Below are positions 1 to 7,315 of a stretch of 7,315 nt of DNA, piece after piece. Made by a program: the position numbers and the translations under genes. The stretch spans positions 1 through 7,315 of the forward strand of contig JAMCRM010000309.1 in assembly GCA_023380575.1 (NCBI GenBank), in the 5' to 3' direction. Source of the DNA: Acidobacteriota bacterium. Lineage in GTDB: Bacteria > Acidobacteriota > Terriglobia > Bryobacterales > Bryobacteraceae. Under the pieces are notes generated by a model, which worked only from the letters and a program-made list of their open reading frames with translations, did no database searches and was not told the origin of the DNA. How positions within the stretch are numbered: the stretch's first letter is position 1; every line of letters begins with the position of its first letter.

Positions 1-57
1 GTGACACTCTCGCAGGAGGTTGTGATCGGGCTGATGGGCGTGAGTCTGATGGCCTGA
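1..57 (+). CDS. C-terminal tail of an unidentified plus-strand protein (partial)
   Basis: Frame 1 is open from the window edge to a TGA at 55-57. It encodes 18 residues ending GLMGVSLMA, mostly hydrophobic, as at the end of a membrane or small-domain protein. Two GC-rich hairpins follow the stop at once, and the next gene converges from the other side, which is what the end of a real plus-strand gene would look like. The piece is too short to identify a family, and an open stretch this short can occur by chance in GC-rich DNA. Confidence 0.3.
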   Translation: MTLSQEVVIGLMGVSLMA

Positions 58-59
58 GC

Positions 60-98
60 GCCGCCTTGGAAGGCGGCGTGGCGGGCTAGAAAGCCCGC
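60..98. terminator. Two tandem GC-rich hairpins between convergent genes
   Basis: Bases 60-66 pair with 71-77 (GCCGCCT / AGGCGGC, loop TGGA). Bases 81-87 pair with 92-98 (GCGGGCT / AGCCCGC, loop AGAA). They lie between the end of the plus-strand frame at 57 and the end of the minus-strand glycosidase at 86; the second stem contains that gene's TAG stop. Neither strand has a T-run after the stems, so this is not a canonical intrinsic terminator. They could still act as a bidirectional transcription or mRNA 3'-end block. Confidence 0.4.
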
Positions 99-1609
99 TC
101 CACGGCGCGGATCACGATGTCCTGCTGGAAGGCGGGCAAGGCCAGCGAAGCCGCCCGGCCGCCTTCTATGGCAATCGCCGGCGAGTAGCCGCCGCTGGCG
201 GGTGCATACAGGCTCACGTCGAAGTGCCCGGCCGGTAGTTGCAGCGTGACCTTTCCGCTGATGGGCTGCCCGGCTGCCGGGTCACTGACCTCGCGCGCAT
301 CCGCGAGATAGGCGACGTAGTCCCGCCCGCGTACGGCCATCGCTGAGGCCACCAGGCTCGCGGGCATCGACTGGACCCACTCAGGCTCCGGCGCAGCATG
401 CACAAAATCGAAGCTGGTCATAAACTCGGCCAGATGTTGCATCCAGGTCCGGATGTGCCGCTGCGAGGCGGGCGTCCCCGTGTCGTTGCCCGGGGTGATC
501 GAAAAGTCAATGTAGTCGTAATGGGAGCCGTTCAGCAGCGCGGTCCAGGCCCGCTTGCGGTGGATGGTCCAGCCGACGGGGTCGCGATACATGCTGGCGG
601 TGTTGTCCTCGTCGAGCACCACGGGCTTCTTTTGCGGGTACACATCGCGGCAGAAGCGGGCCACTTCGGAGAGCATCAGCTCTTTGGACATGAAGCCGCC
701 GAGTTGATAAACCTTGCCGCCGAAACCGGTCTCGGGTAGCGGGTGAACGTTGACGATGTCGAAGACATCCCCGGAAAACGTGGCGTCCAGCGGGAATCGG
801 TTCGTCTTGCCGTAAGGGAAGGCCTGCTGGCCGGAGATCAGGTGCGGCCGGTTCAGGCGCCGCAGTTCCCCGCGCACCACCTTGCCGATTTCCGCCTGCC
901 AGGCATCCACCTCGTCCACCGTGGTGTGTCCGGCGATTCCGCCGCCCGGTTCGTTGCAGATTTCGTAATACACGTTGTCATACGCACTGGTTTCCTGAAT
1001 GATCTTTCGCGCGTATTCTTTTTGGCGGCGGAGCAGTTCCCCATTCTTAGGGGAGAGATACTCTTGCCACGAGATCTTCGCCAGCCCTTGCAGGTTGTTT
1101 TCCGCGCGGAAGGGGTTCAATGCCCAGATGTTGTCCCCGTACGTGTTGCTGAAAATGGTCAGTTCCACCACGATGCCGTGCCGGGAGGCCGCATCCAGGA
1201 AGCGGTGTAGGCGGTCAAAGTACTCCGGATTCCATTGATTCAAGTCGTATCTGGGCTCGCCGTCGAGCGCGTTGCCCGGCCCGGTGCGGGGAAACGGCGC
1301 GATGTAGTCGGGCGATTCGGGCTTGCAGGTCGAGTAAGGATTGCGGGGGCTCTGCAACTCGCGAAAGAGCAGAAATGTGCGAGTGAGGGTGATATGGTGC
1401 CGCGCGGCATCATCCAGATACTTCTCGAAATCGAAAGGCCGGTTCAGGACGGAGCCGTAATGCTCGGTAGCCGTAATGAGGGCCAGCGGCTTGCCCCTGA
1501 ACAGGAAGTACTTGGGGTTTTCGGGGTGGATCTTGACGGCCTCCGCCGGTTGCGCCACCGCCGGCGCCATCAACGCAGCCAACACCGCCAATACGTATGC
1601 CCGCTTCAT
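86..1609 (-). CDS. Secreted putative glycoside hydrolase, clan GH-A-like TIM barrel
   Basis: The protein has 507 residues. The start at 1609 is chosen because GAGGAGGG lies 5 bases upstream and residues 1-24 then form a signal peptide (M-K-R, a hydrophobic core, cleavage near AVAQPAEA), so it is exported. An open frame extends upstream to 1750 but overlaps the preceding gene and would bury the signal. Residues about 25-400 look like a (beta/alpha)8 glycosidase. The motif YYEICNEPGG puts the Asn-Glu pair of clan GH-A at N219-E220, with E220 the likely acid/base; E334 in VVLDED is the likely nucleophile after strand 7. Residues about 415-505 are strand-rich (YVAYLAD, GKVTLQLPAG, FDVSLYAP) and look like a C-terminal beta-sandwich of the kind attached to such enzymes. 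It lies 22 bases after the transaldolase-family gene, so the two are probably co-transcribed. The GH family number and substrate cannot be fixed from the sequence alone. Confidence 0.8.
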   Translation of the reverse strand: MKRAYVLAVLAALMAPAVAQPAEAVKIHPENPKYFLFRGKPLALITATEHYGSVLNRPFDFEKYLDDAARHHITLTRTFLLFRELQSPRNPYSTCKPESPDYIAPFPRTGPGNALDGEPRYDLNQWNPEYFDRLHRFLDAASRHGIVVELTIFSNTYGDNIWALNPFRAENNLQGLAKISWQEYLSPKNGELLRRQKEYARKIIQETSAYDNVYYEICNEPGGGIAGHTTVDEVDAWQAEIGKVVRGELRRLNRPHLISGQQAFPYGKTNRFPLDATFSGDVFDIVNVHPLPETGFGGKVYQLGGFMSKELMLSEVARFCRDVYPQKKPVVLDEDNTASMYRDPVGWTIHRKRAWTALLNGSHYDYIDFSITPGNDTGTPASQRHIRTWMQHLAEFMTSFDFVHAAPEPEWVQSMPASLVASAMAVRGRDYVAYLADAREVSDPAAGQPISGKVTLQLPAGHFDVSLYAPASGGYSPAIAIEGGRAASLALPAFQQDIVIRAVERAF

Positions 1610-1614
1610 TCTGG

Positions 1615-1622
1615 CCCTCCTC
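1615..1622 (-). promoter_or_regulatory. Ribosome binding site of the glycoside hydrolase
   Basis: On the minus strand GAGGAGGG ends 5 bases before the ATG at 1609. It falls in the 22-base gap after the transaldolase-family stop and settles the start in favour of the form with a signal peptide. Confidence 0.8.
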
Positions 1623-1631
1623 GAGCGCGGC

Positions 1632-2696
1632 CTAGCGGCCCGCGGCGACCCCGGCTTCGCGGCGCTGCCGGATGACGTCCAGCACCCTGTTCCAGCTCTT
1701 GATAAACATGCTGCGGAAAAGTTCCACCCCGCCGAAACCGGCGTACTCATCCACGGGCAAACCGTCTTCCAGATAAGCCCGGCGGAAATCGGGGACCTTC
1801 TCCATCAGCTCAGAAATCACGCGGTGCGGAACAGGATTGAACAGCCGGTAAACCACCGGGGGATCGGTCTCGATAAGGGTATCCGCCGTGCCCTTCCAGT
1901 TGATGGTAATGATCAGGTTGCCGCCCAGCAGTTCGGTGAAGTGGTGTAGGCCGCGGGCGCCGCCGCCGATGAAAATCGGGGAGTAGCCGCGTTCCTGCAT
2001 CACCGCGTAGACCTTGCGCGCCACGGCCAACCCGGCCTGCCAGAGCACATCGGGGGAGATATCGATCTTTTCCCGCGCCACCCAGCGGCCCAGGAAATCG
2101 TCATATATGCCGGCAATATGGGCGACGAACAGCACCGGGCGGCGGCCGGTTTGGCGCACCACTTTCTCGTACACTTCGCAGACGCTGATCACTTGCGCCA
2201 CGCTCATCACCTCGGTGGCGGTGACGGGCGTGCCCTCACTGAGCAGGGTTTCGATGGCGGCAAGACCCGCCCGCGTCGCGGGCACCTTAATGCAGACATT
2301 GGGGGCCACCTGGCGGTTGGCGCGTGCCTCGCTCAGGATTACCTCGGTATGGTCCTCGCGGACCGGGTCGCCCTGCAGGGTCACGTAGCCGTCGCGGTGC
2401 GGATTCTTCTCATAAAGAGGGCGGAATTTTTCAATAACGGGGGTTGCCAGGCGGCGCTGCAGCAGAGCTTCGGCCTCGCTATCGTTGGAGGTTTCCTGGA
2501 TCGCCTGATCAAGCAGGGAGAGCGCGTAAGGGCCTTCCTCCGGATGGTCGATCATTTTCTGGCTGAAGGATGGATTGAAAGTGCACCCGACGGCCCCGGC
2601 CTCGATGGCCAGGTCGGCCTCCTTGCGCGTCGGGTTATTGACCCAGAACCCGGTCGGGGTCTGCCGTTGCACTCTATGAAAATAGTCCTTGGGCAT
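1632..2696 (-). CDS. Transaldolase-family protein, divergent
   Basis: The protein has 354 residues. The start at 2696 (MPKDYF) follows GGAGGA with 8 bases spacing; an in-frame ATG at 2762 would add an unconvincing 22-residue leader. The core NVCIKVPAT followed by GLAAIETL is the transaldolase signature, making K137 the Schiff-base lysine; VGCTFNPSF (37-44) matches the GvTTNPS strand-2 motif. Known relatives transfer or cleave three-carbon dihydroxyacetone units. Several canonical positions differ. The N-terminal Asp of the YLDT-type motif appears to be Asn (WVNNPT, 18-23). The usual N-x-T-L-x-F-S stretch reads VTATEVMSVAQ, and the FVGR-I-D segment reads FVAHIAGIYDD. It is longer than FSA-type enzymes (about 220 residues) and nearer the classical TalB length with a helical C-terminal tail. 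It leads the minus-strand pair with the secreted glycosidase and diverges from aldA. It is probably a specialised aldolase or transaldolase of sugar breakdown rather than the housekeeping pentose-phosphate enzyme. Confidence 0.85.
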   Translation of the reverse strand: MPKDYFHRVQRQTPTGFWVNNPTRKEADLAIEAGAVGCTFNPSFSQKMIDHPEEGPYALSLLDQAIQETSNDSEAEALLQRRLATPVIEKFRPLYEKNPHRDGYVTLQGDPVREDHTEVILSEARANRQVAPNVCIKVPATRAGLAAIETLLSEGTPVTATEVMSVAQVISVCEVYEKVVRQTGRRPVLFVAHIAGIYDDFLGRWVAREKIDISPDVLWQAGLAVARKVYAVMQERGYSPIFIGGGARGLHHFTELLGGNLIITINWKGTADTLIETDPPVVYRLFNPVPHRVISELMEKVPDFRRAYLEDGLPVDEYAGFGGVELFRSMFIKSWNRVLDVIRQRREAGVAAGR

Positions 2697-2820
2697 CTGC
2701 TCTCTCCTCCGAATGGTTATAAAATACGAGCCATGGCGCGCCAGGCACGTGTAGCACATCATTTTACCTCAACCGGTTCTTAAAGTCGGCCAGCTTGGCC
2801 AAACAGGGGGAAAGGAAGAG
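2697..2820. promoter_or_regulatory. Divergent promoter/operator region between the transaldolase-family gene and aldA
   Basis: This 124-base gap separates divergent starts, so it must hold both promoters. Perfect palindromes are TTATAA (2717-2722), TGGCGCGCCA (2734-2743), CACGTG (2746-2751) and AACCGGTT (2771-2778). An inverted repeat GGCCA-GCT-TGGCC lies at 2788-2800. The A+T-rich stretch 2716-2727 is the best -10-like candidate, but I find no good -35 partner on either strand. The palindromes are candidate operator halves for an unseen regulator; none is proven. No riboswitch-like structure was recognised. Confidence 0.5.
2705..2710 (-). promoter_or_regulatory. Ribosome binding site of the transaldolase-family gene
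   Basis: GGAGGA on the minus strand ends 8 bases before the ATG at 2696. It supports this start over the upstream in-frame ATG at 2762. Confidence 0.75.
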
Positions 2821-4263
2821 ATGAAAGAATACGGCAATTTCATTAACGGCAGGTTTACCACGCCGGACGGAAGCCAGGAACGGATCGAAGTGAAGAATCC
2901 TTCCACCGGCGAGGTGATCGCCACTGTACCGGAAAGCACGCCGGCGGAAATTGAAGCGGCGTTCGCGGCTGCCAAGGCGGCGCAAACCGAGTGGGCGGCC
3001 CGCCCGGCTGTCGAGCGCGCCAAGGCGCTGCATACGATTGCCGCGCGGGTGCGCGAAAACACGGAGCGAATCGCCCGCGTTGTTACCGAAGAGCAGGGCA
3101 AAATACTCGGACTGGCGCGCGTGGAAGCGGCCTTTACCGCGGACTACTTCGACTATATGGCGGAGTGGGCGCGCCGCATCGAAGGAGAGATCCTGGAAAG
3201 CGACCGTCCCGGGGAAACCATCCTGCTATTCCGGCAGCCCATCGGGGTCATCGCGGGCATTCTCCCCTGGAATTTTCCCTTCTTCCTGATTGCGCGCAAA
3301 ACGGCGCCCGCGCTGGTCACGGGAAACACCATTGTCATCAAGCCCAGCGAGGAGACCCCCATCAATGCTGCGCTTTTCTGCGAGTTGATCGCGGATTTGG
3401 GCTTGCCTCCCGGGGTGATCAACATCGTCCACGGGCGCGGACCCACGGTGGGGCAGGCCCTGGCGGGTTCCCCGGTGGCGGGCATGGTCAGCTTTACCGG
3501 CAGCGTGCAAACCGGCTGTGCCATCATGGCGGCCGCCGCTTCGAACATCACCAAGGTCAACCTGGAACTGGGGGGCAAGGCACCCGCCATCGTGATGGCC
3601 GATGCCGATATCGACCTGGCCGTGAGAGCCGTCAAGGCCTCGCGCGTGATCAACAGCGGGCAGGTCTGCAACTGCGCCGAACGGGTCTATGTCCAGGCGA
3701 AGATCGCCGGCGAGTTCACCGAAAAGCTCTCGCAGGCGATGAAGGAAACGCGCTTTGGCAATCCCCTTGAAGACGAATCGGTGGAATACGGGCCGCTGAT
3801 CAACGAGGGAGGTTTCCGCAAGGTGGAACGGCTTGTGTCCACTGCCTTGAAGCAGGGGGCAACCGTGGTAACCGGCGGTTCCAGGGGACCCGGCGAGGGC
3901 GGCTACTACTACCAGCCCACCGTGCTGGCCGACTGCCGCCAGGACATGGACATCATCCGCAACGAGACGTTCGGCCCCGTGGTTCCCTTAGTGACTTTCG
4001 ACGACCTGGACCAGGCCATTCAATACGCCAACGACTCCGACTATGGCCTCACCTCGTCGATTTACACGCGGGATCTGAACGTGGCGCTCAAGGCCTGCCA
4101 GCAGATCCGCTTCGGCGAAACCTATATCAACCGCGAGAATTTCGAAGCCATGCAGGGCTTCCATGCCGGATGGCGCAAGAGCGGCATCGGCGGCGCCGAC
4201 GGCAAGCACGGGCTATACGAGTTCACCCAGACGCACGTCGTCTACCTGCAGCGGGCGCTGTAG
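2821..4263 (+). CDS. aldA: Lactaldehyde/glycolaldehyde dehydrogenase (AldA type)
   Basis: This 480-residue NAD-dependent aldehyde dehydrogenase is close to E. coli AldA (479 residues) along its whole length. Long stretches are shared from memory of that protein, including AFTADYxDYMAEWARR (104-119), ILPWNFPFFLIARK (147-160), SRVINSGQVCNCAERVYV (274-291) and GFHAGWRKSGIGGADGKHGL (446-465). The catalytic set is complete: oxyanion Asn N151, general base E249 in LELGGK, and nucleophile C283 in GQVC. The known role is oxidation of L-lactaldehyde to L-lactate and glycolaldehyde to glycolate in the cytosol, at the end of fucose, rhamnose and related pathways. AGGGGGA (2805-2811) and AAGGA (2812-2816) precede the ATG. 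It is the only complete plus-strand gene. Its TAG is immediately followed by the stop of the convergent SDR gene, with no intergenic base. A related semialdehyde is possible as substrate, but the AldA-specific conservation makes lactaldehyde or glycolaldehyde most likely. Confidence 0.93.
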   Translation: MKEYGNFINGRFTTPDGSQERIEVKNPSTGEVIATVPESTPAEIEAAFAAAKAAQTEWAARPAVERAKALHTIAARVRENTERIARVVTEEQGKILGLARVEAAFTADYFDYMAEWARRIEGEILESDRPGETILLFRQPIGVIAGILPWNFPFFLIARKTAPALVTGNTIVIKPSEETPINAALFCELIADLGLPPGVINIVHGRGPTVGQALAGSPVAGMVSFTGSVQTGCAIMAAAASNITKVNLELGGKAPAIVMADADIDLAVRAVKASRVINSGQVCNCAERVYVQAKIAGEFTEKLSQAMKETRFGNPLEDESVEYGPLINEGGFRKVERLVSTALKQGATVVTGGSRGPGEGGYYYQPTVLADCRQDMDIIRNETFGPVVPLVTFDDLDQAIQYANDSDYGLTSSIYTRDLNVALKACQQIRFGETYINRENFEAMQGFHAGWRKSGIGGADGKHGLYEFTQTHVVYLQRAL

Positions 4264-5049
4264 TCACTCGTTTGACCATTCGGCGGCGGCCAGGTAACCG
4301 GCGTCCACAATCAGGGTGGTGCCGGTGATTCCGGATGAGCCATCGCCGGAGAGGTACAGAGCCGCATCCGCAACCTCGCGCGCGGTCAGGGCCTTTCCGA
4401 GTGGCACACGGTTGAGCCGCTCGCGCAAAGTTCGCTCCGGGTCCGGCGTCGAGTTCAGGTGCTCACGCAACATGGGCGTATCGGTGATGCCGGGACACAC
4501 GCAATTCACACGGATGCCGTAGCGGGCAAGGTCGAGGGCTAGCGTCTTCGACAGCATGGCCACGCCGCCCTTCGAGGCGACATAGGCCGGGGTCCTGGCC
4601 TGCCCCACAAAGGACGAGATCGACCCCATGGTGACGATAGTGGGCCGCGTGGATGCGCGCAGGGCGGGCAGCGCGTACTTGCAGCACAGGAAGATGGATT
4701 TCAGGTTGATATCCATCACCCTGTCCCACTCCGCAACAGTGCACTCTTCGATGGTCTTCACCAGGACCACGCCGGCGTTGTTCACCAGGTGGTCCAGCCC
4801 GCCGTACAGCTTCACGCCCGCATCGATACCGGCGATCACGTCCTCTTCACGGCTGACATCGGCGCGAAAGAACTGGCAAATGCCGCCTTCGGCCCTGATC
4901 TGCTCAGCGGCGGCACGACCCTTCTCCTCGTTCCGGCCCAACATGACGACGCGCGCGCCTTCTTCGGCGAAGCGCTGGGCACAACCCAGACCGATGCCGT
5001 AACTCGCGCCCGTTACCAACGCCACGCGATTCTCAAATTGGCGGCTCAT
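4264..5049 (-). CDS. Short-chain dehydrogenase/reductase, probable sugar or polyol dehydrogenase
   Basis: The protein has 261 residues, the usual classical-SDR length. The cofactor motif TGASYGIG is at 13-20, NNAG at 90-93, the structural Asn in DINLKS at 115, and the catalytic triad S143, Y156, K160 (YVASK). PG plus T near 186-191 follows the usual pattern after strand 6. The end of strand 2 reads MLGRN, with Arg39 rather than an acidic residue, which tends to favour NADP(H); this is a weak inference. The ATG overlaps the TGA of the upstream MBL-fold gene (ATGA, 5046-5049), and GGAGGT (5058-5063) sits 8 bases before it. In this operon a likely job is oxidising an aldose (fucose, rhamnose, galactose type) to its lactone, but SDR substrates cannot be read from sequence alone and a keto-sugar or FabG-like role is possible. 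It is the last gene of the operon and abuts aldA tail to tail. Confidence 0.88.
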   Translation of the reverse strand: MSRQFENRVALVTGASYGIGLGCAQRFAEEGARVVMLGRNEEKGRAAAEQIRAEGGICQFFRADVSREEDVIAGIDAGVKLYGGLDHLVNNAGVVLVKTIEECTVAEWDRVMDINLKSIFLCCKYALPALRASTRPTIVTMGSISSFVGQARTPAYVASKGGVAMLSKTLALDLARYGIRVNCVCPGITDTPMLREHLNSTPDPERTLRERLNRVPLGKALTAREVADAALYLSGDGSSGITGTTLIVDAGYLAAAEWSNE

Positions 5050-5822
5050 GCGATTACACCTCCAGGGAACCGTTTGAACACCTCGGGGTCATAAATGGAT
5101 GCCGTCAGGTCCGCTTCCTTGCGGATGCGCCCCCAGGTGGCGTCGGCTTCCATCATGCTCTCCATCACGCCCAGGTAATGGCCCTGCTCCAGGTTGCCGT
5201 ATTTGAAGAAGCAATCGGTCACGATGAGGGTCCCCTTGGCCGTATCGATGCACACGGCAAGGGAGGAGCGGTGATGGACACCCGCCCAGAACGTCCGCAG
5301 CCCCGGCAGGATCTGCTCTTCATCCGCCAGCAGCCGGACCTTCTCCCATCCCTCATTCTGCAGGTAATTGTTGACTTCGGGCGGAATGCGCAGGTGCCGC
5401 GGTACGTGCAGATGGTAGTAGGGCGCCTGGAAGTCTTCAATCCAGCCCTTGCGGGAGATGCAGATCTCGGCGTTCCGGAAAAGGTGGATGTTGGATGTGG
5501 CGTAGGCCTGCAGCGGGGTGACAATCACCATGTCGATGTCTTCCGGCGTAAGGCCCTGGGAGCGCACGATGTTCTGCGGTAGCTGATCGTCCGTACGGGC
5601 AATCTGCGCTTCCGGAAAACCGAAGAATTCGAGCCACCCCGCGTTGAGGACGCGCAGGTCCTGCGGAGGGCCGGTATTGATCAAAATGTTCTTCCCGCCG
5701 CCCCGGATCAGGTAGATGATGGCGTTCATCTCCTCGCGGGTGTTCCAGTGCTGCATCCAGTAGACTTCGGGTCCGGGGACCCAGAAGGTTCCGCCATTAA
5801 AAGCCTGCACGGAATATTTCAT
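5046..5822 (-). CDS. MBL-fold lactonase-like protein with a degenerate metal site
   Basis: The protein has 258 residues, the size of AHL-lactonase-like MBL proteins. Fold landmarks are clear: NAIIYLIRGGGKNILINTGPP (33-53), LTPEDIDMVIVT (91-102), a segment with FRNAEI (115-120), GVHHRSS (181-187) and LIVTDCFF (199-206). In active relatives T102 is followed by HLHxDH; here the residues are P103-L-Q105-A-Y107-A108, so all four HxHxDH ligands are replaced. The His of the GHTxGS-like motif (H183) and the Asp of the later strand (D203) remain, but the last His position appears to be Y244 (IYDPEV). The frame is continuous with good codons on both sides, so this is not a frameshift. The ATG overlaps the aldolase stop (ATGA, 5819-5822) and its own stop overlaps the SDR start. 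Context suggests a sugar-lactone hydrolase role. With the metal site gone it may bind, regulate or use a different chemistry, so the activity is unknown. Confidence 0.75.
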   Translation of the reverse strand: MKYSVQAFNGGTFWVPGPEVYWMQHWNTREEMNAIIYLIRGGGKNILINTGPPQDLRVLNAGWLEFFGFPEAQIARTDDQLPQNIVRSQGLTPEDIDMVIVTPLQAYATSNIHLFRNAEICISRKGWIEDFQAPYYHLHVPRHLRIPPEVNNYLQNEGWEKVRLLADEEQILPGLRTFWAGVHHRSSLAVCIDTAKGTLIVTDCFFKYGNLEQGHYLGVMESMMEADATWGRIRKEADLTASIYDPEVFKRFPGGVIA

Positions 5823-6619
5823 GCTCTGCCATTCCTCCCGGCATGTACCAATTCCGGAATGCCTTCCACCACCGTCTTCCGGAAACTGCGTATAGCATTC
5901 AAATAAACTCCGATGTCGCTGCCCATGCTAATGGCGCGGAAGCCCTTGCGAATCCAATGGATGGTCGCCTCCGGGGTGGCCGGCAGGAATCCCGGTGCCA
6001 CGCCGTAGCGGCGGCAGGCGCCGACCAGCGAATCCATCGACTGCAGGAAGCGGGGATGATCGAACTGCGCGGGGATCCCCATCGAGACGGTGAGGTCATA
6101 GTGCCCCATCCAGGCGATATCCACGCCCGGCACGGAAACGATGGGATGCAGGTTCTCGAAGGCCTTGACGGTTTCCAGCAGCAGGATGACCACGATCTCT
6201 TCATTCATCCGGGCAAAGAACTCCGGACTCCCCGCCTGATAGAGATCGTGCGCCACTCCTAGCGCTACGCCGCGCCGGCCCTGTGGCGCGTACTTCAACT
6301 GCGCGACTACGTTTTCCGCCTGCGCCCGGCTTTCGATGCGCGGGACCATCACGCCGCGCACGCCCAGATCGAGCACCCGGGAGAGCGGCGCGAAGTTCAC
6401 GTCCGGCACGCGCACCATGGGAAAGATGTTGCTCCCGCGGCAGGAGGCGACACTTTCCGCGAGCAGGCCGATATCGCAGCGGCCATGCTCCATGTCGAAG
6501 ATCACGAACTCCGCCCCGGCAGCCGCCAGCATGGGCCCGATACCCGGGGTGAAAAGTTCCAGAACCATCTGGCCCAGAATTACTTCACCGTCATGCCATC
6601 TTTTCCGTAAACCGGTCAT
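5819..6619 (-). CDS. HpcH/HpaI-family class II aldolase, 2-keto-3-deoxy sugar-acid type
   Basis: The protein has 266 residues, normal for the family. Active-site residues fall at the same numbers as in E. coli HpaI: H45 (DMEHG), R70, D84 (VLDLG), metal ligands E149 (LLLET) and D175 (MGHYDLTVSMG). KYAPQGRRG (109-117) and VPGVD (163-167) are further family marks. The family performs metal-dependent retro-aldol cleavage of 2-keto-3-deoxy acids to pyruvate plus an aldehyde in the cytosol. Residue 147, Gln in HpaI, is Leu, and 174, Ala in HpaI, is Tyr; a GH[FY]DL variant is, to my recollection, common in rhamnonate-aldolase-like relatives. The likely substrate is a 2-keto-3-deoxy-rhamnonate or fuconate-type acid, whose lactaldehyde product would feed the nearby AldA. 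It overlaps both neighbours by 4 bases. GAGGGG lies just 3 bases before the ATG, a short spacing, so translation may depend on coupling to the upstream gene. Confidence 0.87.
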   Translation of the reverse strand: MTGLRKRWHDGEVILGQMVLELFTPGIGPMLAAAGAEFVIFDMEHGRCDIGLLAESVASCRGSNIFPMVRVPDVNFAPLSRVLDLGVRGVMVPRIESRAQAENVVAQLKYAPQGRRGVALGVAHDLYQAGSPEFFARMNEEIVVILLLETVKAFENLHPIVSVPGVDIAWMGHYDLTVSMGIPAQFDHPRFLQSMDSLVGACRRYGVAPGFLPATPEATIHWIRKGFRAISMGSDIGVYLNAIRSFRKTVVEGIPELVHAGRNGRA

Positions 6620-7315
6620 ATTCCCCTCGCCAGAGAACGCTTATAGGAGTCGAGCTTCTTGCGGAAGCCGGGCCGTTCAAGCACGTCGCGGTTGACCACG
6701 TGCGCCGGCGCCTCGCCGCGCCGGACCGCCAGCGCGCCTTCGCAGTCCGTGCGTCCCATGTCGCGGAACAACTCCCGCGTCCAGGCCAGGGAATGCGAGG
6801 TCACAATCACGTTATTGAGCGACAGTAGCGGCGAATCCGCTTCGATGGGCTCTTTTTCGAAGACATCCAGCGCCGCCCCGCGGATCCTCTGGCTCTGGAG
6901 CGCCTGGATGAGCGCCGGCTGGTTGATGATGGGCCCGCGCGCCGCATTGACGATAAACGCTTCCGGCTTCATGAGGCCGATTTCCCGTTCCCCGATCAAA
7001 CTGCGGGTTTCGGGAGTAAGCGCGCAGTTGATGAGAACGTAGTCCGAACGGCGGAGCACGTCATCGAGCGTGGTCATTTCGACGCCCAGTTCTTCCGCCC
7101 TGCCCGGGACCGCATAAGGATCGAAGGCCAGGAACTGCGCCACTCCAAAGGGGCGCAGCAGGCGCACCGCTTCGGAGGCGATATTGCCCAGCCCTATGGT
7201 GCCCACCACCCGTTCCCGGGGTTCGATGCCGAGTTGCCGGGTACTCTCCACCCAGCGGCCCTGCCGCACCATGCGATCCTTGAGGACCATGTTGTGGGAG
7301 AGCGCCAGCACGAAC
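6616..7315 (-). CDS. D-isomer-specific 2-hydroxyacid dehydrogenase (N-terminus beyond the window)
   Basis: This is the C-terminal 232 residues of an NAD(P)-dependent D-2-hydroxyacid dehydrogenase. The frame is open to base 7315, and family proteins run about 310-330 residues, so roughly 90 are missing. Counted in the fragment, the nucleotide-binding loop is GTIGLGNIA (38-46), with Ala where the third Gly is usual. The catalytic triad is R116 (NAARG), E145 (DVFEKEP) and H164 (TSHS). C-terminal VVNRDVLERPGF is typical of the phosphoglycerate/glyoxylate-reductase branch. It would interconvert a 2-keto acid and a D-2-hydroxyacid, perhaps handling pyruvate, glyoxylate or a sugar-derived 2-keto acid from this operon; the substrate is open. 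Its TGA overlaps the aldolase start in ATGA (6616-6619), making it the earliest visible gene of a tightly coupled operon whose promoter lies to the right of the window. Confidence 0.88.
   Translation of the reverse strand, partial: FVLALSHNMVLKDRMVRQGRWVESTRQLGIEPRERVVGTIGLGNIASEAVRLLRPFGVAQFLAFDPYAVPGRAEELGVEMTTLDDVLRRSDYVLINCALTPETRSLIGEREIGLMKPEAFIVNAARGPIINQPALIQALQSQRIRGAALDVFEKEPIEADSPLLSLNNVIVTSHSLAWTRELFRDMGRTDCEGALAVRRGEAPAHVVNRDVLERPGFRKKLDSYKRSLARGI

Follow-up and report, generated by a model that had tools for sequence, protein, structure and literature searches.

A conserved branch of the metallo-beta-lactamase fold that has lost most of its metal ligands: a candidate metal-free lactonase of sugar-acid catabolism

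What does a protein with the fold of a metal-dependent lactonase do once most of its metal ligands are gone? This question is raised by a gene in a 7,315-nt stretch of DNA from an Acidobacteriota bacterium (contig JAMCRM010000309.1, positions 1 to 7,315), which was analysed as a whole and is called the window below. The encoded protein has the metallo-beta-lactamase (MBL) fold and lacks the HxHxDH motif, which PMC7785958 terms the hallmark of the MBL superfamily. We propose that it belongs to a conserved subfamily, here subfamily A, on the acyl homoserine lactone (AHL) lactonase branch of the fold, which has lost most of its metal site and acts in sugar-acid catabolism as a metal-free lactonase. 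For this proposal as a whole the chances are close to even, though somewhat below. The gene and the positions that define it are the following.

5046..5822, (-) strand: MBL-fold protein without HxHxDH motif (subfamily A), 258 aa, from the translated open reading frame (ORF)
5496..5519, (-) strand: T102-P-L-Q-A-Y-A-T109 instead of HxHxDH, from an alignment with HxHxDH-keeping relatives
5262..5276, (-) strand: H183-H184-R185-S186-S187, with H183 at the third metal His, from the alignment
5214..5216, (-) strand: D203, at the position of the bridging metal Asp, kept, from the alignment
5091..5093, (-) strand: Y244, standing where the last metal His would be, from the alignment

The protein (258-aa ORF 5046-5822 (-)) contains ...MVIVTPLQAYATSN.... 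In the alignment the ligand positions H, H, D and H of HxHxDH correspond to P103, Q105, Y107 and A108, and the 'GHDP' found in relatives at the last metal His reads 'YDPE'. Five of the seven metal-ligand positions are replaced, and H183 and D203 are the two that survive. An earlier note, made from the sequence alone, had read P-L-Q-A-Y-A at 5497-5517 in place of HxHxDH and Tyr244 as the last metal His; the alignment agrees with both, and the interval was correct within two bases. The note did not mention that H183 is directly followed by another conserved His, H184 (GVHHRSS).

The sole Pfam match at E<=0.1 was PF00753, at 17.6 bits and under its gathering score of 22.7, and some relatives have a precomputed PF00753 assignment; the Amidohydro_2 domain (PF04909) was not matched at this threshold. 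The curated AiiA model NF045699 was not passed (23.3 bits versus a cut-off of 375). In a high-confidence predicted model the lactonase fold is kept, in line with the earlier view that the rest of the fold is intact, and the best structural matches of this model were lactonases. The AHL lactonases AiiA, AiiB, AhlX and GcL and the Pseudomonas poae lactonase 8x78 are 14-18% identical to the window protein in alignments, and differ from it in having HxHxDH and the last metal His. The ligand motif of 4-pyridoxolactonase (3aj3, 4keq), a metal-dependent enzyme, is likewise missing from the window protein.

Is the altered motif peculiar to one gene? Searching with the window protein gave 936 proteins at E<=0.001, and the best 120 (78-100% identity, the window's own included) were listed; the protein of locus L010, which is 55% identical, gave 754 at the same threshold, and again the best 120 were listed. 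HxHxDH occurs in none of these 240 listed proteins. TPLQAYA is exact in 223 of them, with the remaining 17 each one position off; GxHHRS, hence HH at 183-184, is present in all 240, and YDP at 244-246 in 234. Residues E19, N49, R76, Q105, Y107, E129, D130, H139, H184, R185, E221 and Y244 are invariant in 81 aligned rows, as are H183 and D203, which the earlier note had rightly called intact. In the locus alignment Y107, H184 and S187 are found in 37/37 subfamily A rows, and R185 in 36/37 (His in L079). Among eight window-clade genes the motif codons vary at silent sites only, and pairwise dN/dS is 0.042-0.121 (23/28 pairs computable; dS saturated in five). The window-clade gene is under purifying selection, and that the family is real and conserved is near certain.

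Loss of ligands might also be expected of a decaying metallo-lactonase copy. This candidate was rejected and retains practically no probability: it is refuted by the dN/dS values, the near-constant protein length in close relatives, the single clade and the absence of HxHxDH from the 240 listed proteins. Close homologues with intact HxHxDH, the sign of decay named in the earlier note, were not found: the nearest HxHxDH relatives found (L042-L044; HLHWDH or HTHLDH) are 28-29% identical.

In a maximum-likelihood tree of 64 rows, a branch with support 99/97 separates all 36 motif-degenerate rows from the rest. L015, L036 and L049 (incomplete or containing N runs) were left out of this tree, and the repeat loci L016, L041, L050, L064, L096 and L099 were dropped from both the locus alignment and the tree. 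The clade sharing the motif that the earlier note envisaged thus exists, and its suggestion of an undescribed MBL subfamily apparently holds, going by the open-PMC literature and generic database names. Many members are labelled 'glyoxylase-like metal-dependent hydrolase', a name that may mislead for these proteins, and in open PMC no paper on the family was found by title or abstract under a metal-free MBL-fold enzyme or a matching pathway in such bacteria. Loci were found in metagenome-assembled genomes of Acidobacteria/Terriglobia, Chloroflexi and Ignavibacteriae (15 named loci). With the starting genome included in each case, the carriers numbered 4 of 396 in one phylum (at E<=1e-114; a threshold of E<=1e-5 gave 24 matches in this tally, 20 of them distant relatives), 1/301 and 3/296 in two further phyla, 15 of 40 genomes of one order and 4 of 200 of another. 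Plasmids gave no match to the subfamily, and none of 10 pattern matches in viral contigs encoded a relative.

The nearest tree neighbour of the degenerate rows is L100 (QIYH / GGHHPGS / ETAF / CHDPT), with support 99/93 and a long branch. A search with its protein, of subfamily B, gave 208 proteins at E<=0.001. Among the best 120 listed, with names that include Micromonospora, Dactylosporangium and Pseudonocardia, position 103 is Q, 107 is Y and 203 is Glu throughout, and GGHHPGS is present in 119 and GGHHAGS in 1. Two subfamily B genes, in L153 (7056-7832) and L170 (6211-6984), lie near Gfo/Idh/MocA oxidoreductase and RhaT-like genes, and a D-serine-dehydratase-like gene is also nearby in L170. 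Subfamily B (TQ..xYH, GGHHPGS, ETAF) resembles subfamily A in the loss of the first ligands, in Tyr107, in HH at 183-184 and in the predicted fold, and differs in that the last His is nearly always retained and position 203 is Glu. Two subfamilies that adjoin in the tree thus have in common the lost first ligands, the new Tyr107 and the His pair. A broader claim, that A and B together form a catalytic MBL branch that hydrolyses sugar lactones metal-free, an unrecognised lactonase of rhamnose or deoxysugar catabolism, is possible, and we lean towards doubting it; Tyr107, the His183-His184 pair and an acid at 203 are common to both.

The conserved residues could instead have been recruited into a new ligand set, such as H139, H183, H184, D203, D130 or E129, making the protein a remodelled metalloenzyme. 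The invariance of these residues in the 81 rows suits this explanation. However, L051 and L052 (~35% identical; TPLTAYA and TPMTAYA) substitute H139 and E129 yet keep TP..AYA, HHRSS and YDP, and subfamily B has Glu at 203; we regard a remodelled site as rather unlikely.

A metal-free lactonase is the best single prediction for the activity, although we hold it tentatively and below even chances. H183 and D203 would form a metal-free general-base dyad acting on water, and Y107, H184 and R185 may hold and polarise the lactone carbonyl and anchor sugar hydroxyls or the sugar acid. The fold of AidH differs from the MBL fold. AidH is a metal-independent lactonase (PMC3532132), so metal-free lactonase chemistry is feasible. 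A conserved branch that dropped HxHxDH and retained the lactonase body would be a natural experiment in turning a metalloenzyme into a metal-free protein.

The same His, Tyr and Asp sites would suit proton transfer, as in an isomerase or mutarotase acting on a sugar, on lactone ring size (1,5 to 1,4) or on a keto-acid hemiketal. Such an activity would be useful in aldolase-type (window clade) and FAH-type gene clusters alike, and the dehydrogenase described in PMC11199699 is reported there to act on its substrate as the cyclic hemiketal. Against this, the best structural matches are lactonases and none of the 50 structural-match rows listed is described as an isomerase, which leaves the idea quite unlikely.

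Gene context was compared between 37 subfamily A loci and 30 controls. The counts exclude L013, where the gene is cut at the contig end, and genome G1032 contributes two of the 37 loci. The controls are wider-superfamily relatives plus one subfamily B locus (L153); among them L033 has HxDxDH and two loci come from G237, and L049 was unused. A gene for a short-chain dehydrogenase/reductase (SDR) lies within 1.5 kb of the MBL-like gene in 25/37 loci versus 1/30 controls, and within 6 kb in 28/37, making SDR the commonest partner across the whole family. The Fisher p of 2.7e-8 for this proximity is indicative only and overstates independence, because the SDR model derives from these same neighbouring genes and the loci are related to one another. 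An HpcH aldolase was seen as a neighbour in the window clade alone. There, a 2HADH (D-2-hydroxyacid dehydrogenase) gene and an HpcH gene lie within 1.5 kb of the MBL gene in the window, L001-L008 and L015, not in L014, and in several loci aldehyde dehydrogenase, SDR, cupin or apiosidase-like glycosidase genes lie farther out. The interpretation of the earlier note is supported overall; of the shared neighbours it expected, the SDR stands for the family and the emphasis on the aldolase is narrowed to the window clade.

The nearby SDR gene in loci of several phyla, together with the replacement of 5/7 ligand positions, would also fit a non-catalytic pseudoenzyme: a protein that binds a lactone or sugar acid and serves to regulate or scaffold neighbouring proteins, the SDR being the likeliest of these. 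The many invariant polar residues in the 81 rows speak more for a catalytic site than for a surface that only binds, and in 12/37 loci no SDR lies within 1.5 kb. A pseudoenzyme is unlikely, though worth serious consideration.

Which pathway would such a lactonase serve? Most likely it is a nonphosphorylating pathway that degrades L-rhamnose or some related deoxy sugar, and a role somewhere in deoxysugar or sugar-acid catabolism is probable. In known pathways the lactone-opening step is done by amidohydrolase-type lactonases. Those of the nonphosphorylating L-fucose/L-rhamnose pathways, FucB (cog3618) and LRA2, occupy the step proposed here, and differ from the MBL-like protein in family and in fold. 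Some genomes with the MBL gene have a gene of Amidohydro_2, the customary sugar-lactonase family, as well. According to PMC11199699, the L-fucose route starts with a dehydrogenase, a lactonase and a dehydratase, ends with either an aldolase (route 1) or a 4-dehydrogenase and a hydrolase (route 3), and is homologous to the rhamnose route. An SDR sugar dehydrogenase would make the lactone, whose ring the MBL-like protein would open, giving the sugar acid on which the dehydratase acts.

A RhaT-, RhmD- or GH78-like gene lies within 9 kb in 15/37 loci, a count made with no matched control and with four loci (L161, L162, L164, L167) swapped for longer stretches of the same places. In L003 an L-rhamnonate dehydratase (731.6 bits, cut-off 393) is encoded ~2.6 kb downstream, and in L006 RhaT (498 bits) lies ~6 kb from the MBL gene. 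In L005 the MBL gene is immediately followed by a RhaT-like sequence split in two (394.5 bits, cut-off 468). The order in L056 is dehydratase (527.9 bits in that genome), SDR_b, MBL, SDR_c, and the cluster adjoins ABC-transporter genes with a sugar-type binding domain. L161 carries, all in the same orientation, MBL (truncated at the contig end), SDR_c, LutA, an RhmD-like gene (249.4 bits, under cut-off), an SDR_b fragment (189 aa), LutB, a GH78 rhamnosidase and FAH. The order in L162 is MBL, SDR_c, LutA, LutB, GH78, FAH, and L163 has FAH, GH78, LutB, SDR_b and an RhmD-like gene, with the MBL gene of that genome on another contig. LutB of L090 scores above the cut-off of the L-lactate oxidation model (475.3 versus 444.8 bits). 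The best PDB match of SDR_b from L056 and L163 was 6d9y, given in PMC11199699 as the closest structure to L-KDR 4-dehydrogenase. For FAH of L163, the L-2,4-diketo-3-deoxyrhamnonate hydrolase 8gsr was the third best PDB match (204.6 bits), after 1gtt and 8sky. By gene content L161 looks like route 3 and the window clade like route 1, and the MBL-like protein could fill the lactonase slot in both if the adjoining SDR is the putative sugar dehydrogenase. The family may name a deoxysugar-breakdown step in soil Acidobacteriota.

Pairing with SDRs and the lactate-handling genes that adjoin in some loci (LutAB; LarA-like) could suggest a metal-free C-C hydrolase of 2,4-diketo-3-deoxy sugar acids that replaces the FAH-family hydrolase. 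The window clade has an aldolase instead, and this DKDR (C-C) hydrolase role was mostly rejected because FAH-family genes share the clusters of L161 and L162; we consider it very unlikely. For the window clade, apiose catabolism is possible, with apiosidase-like PF13204 and cupin genes among its neighbours; rhamnose is favoured instead by RhaT (L005, L006) and RhmD (L003).

Several observations weigh against a lactonase of rhamnose catabolism. None of the three rhamnose markers lies within 9 kb in 22/37 loci, the window included (many flanks are shorter), and the 7,315-nt window holds no dehydratase gene. Within the window clade an SDR is found within 1.5 kb in 3/11 loci and within 6 kb in 5/11. 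At the genome level there was no association with RhmD in one order (7/15 genomes with the MBL-like gene versus 14/25 without). An Amidohydro_2-like gene (7507-8484) directly follows the MBL gene in L003, the MBL-bearing genomes G001 and G1235 have cassettes of Amidohydro_2, MFS and RhmD genes elsewhere (L155, L156), and Amidohydro_2 was present in 20/20 genomes searched. FAH was present in 18/20, and the genome-level presence of both is undiagnostic because they are too common. Finally, in L085-L089 the place of rhamnose genes is taken by citramalate-synthase-like and threonine-dehydrogenase-like ones; in L087 citramalate synthase and L-threonine-3-dehydrogenase are both named by curated models. 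In L011 (1685-5269) and L012 the MBL-like gene and its SDR are directly followed by genes for a LarA-like racemase, another SDR and an E1 dehydrogenase component. The gene content of L085-L089 and L011/L012 implies that the substrate may differ between clades. Among window-clade genomes, an RhmD-like protein was found at E<=1e-60 in 9/10 and above the curated cut-off in 4/10.

Some of these loci are of interest in themselves. No rhamnose pathway accounts for the setting of the MBL-like/SDR pair in L085-L089. The Amidohydro_2(-like) genes of L155 (3400-4374), L156 (9278-10300) and L003 (7507-8484) stand beside MFS transporter and L-rhamnonate dehydratase genes, and those of L155 and L156 have, by eye, a signal-like N-terminus, possibly marking a second, exported sugar lactonase in these genomes. 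In L057 (57-3966), and in similar order in L058, the MBL-like gene of a ~35% identical clade lies between two SDRs; L057 continues with a 259-aa protein (no Pfam match) and an acetoacetate-decarboxylase-like protein. One L057 SDR has L-rhamnose 1-dehydrogenase as its best NCBIfam match (219.2 bits, under the cut-off of 400), and its sole PDB match at the cut-off used was 7b81/7do5-7do7, which we take to be L-rhamnose dehydrogenase, an assumption that a further check did not confirm. The best PDB match of the L087 SDR was 8eh2/8gbb, apparently an uncharacterised Acinetobacter SDR (PMC10449147).

The remaining genes of the window are listed below.

6616..7314, (-) strand: D-2-hydroxyacid dehydrogenase (2HADH), 5' part beyond the window, PF02826 181.6 bits
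5819..6619, (-) strand: HpcH/HpaI aldolase, 266 aa, PF03328 99.2 bits
4264..5049, (-) strand: SDR oxidoreductase, 261 aa, PF13561 212.4 bits
2821..4263, (+) strand: aldehyde dehydrogenase, NCBIfam PRK10090, NF007497 764.8 bits, cut-off 500
1632..2702, (-) strand: divergent transaldolase-like protein, 356 aa (start as chosen), PF00923 88.4 bits
86..1609, (-) strand: glycoside-hydrolase-like protein, 507 aa (start as chosen), DUF6298 34.5 and Cellulase 24.7 bits

The aldolase gene is upstream and the SDR gene downstream of the MBL-like gene. ATGA overlaps join 2HADH to HpcH (6616-6619), HpcH to the MBL-like gene (5819-5822) and the latter to SDR (5046-5049), as expected from the translational coupling to aldolase and SDR noted earlier. 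The SDR scores 221.5 bits with NF005559, the 'glucose 1-dehydrogenase' subfamily model, which is over its cut-off of 215. Among NCBIfam models the aldolase scored 122.5 bits with HpaI and 95.2 bits with 2-keto-3-deoxy-L-rhamnonate aldolase, both far under cut-off, and its PDB relatives are 3qz6, 1dxe and 2vws. The aldehyde dehydrogenase is presumably AldA/lactaldehyde dehydrogenase, given its PRK10090 match. The glycoside-hydrolase-like protein had no NCBIfam match. The best NCBIfam score of the transaldolase-like protein (1632-2702 (-)) was 74.6 bits, with a cut-off of 367, and this protein is possibly another case of changed function in the window cluster.
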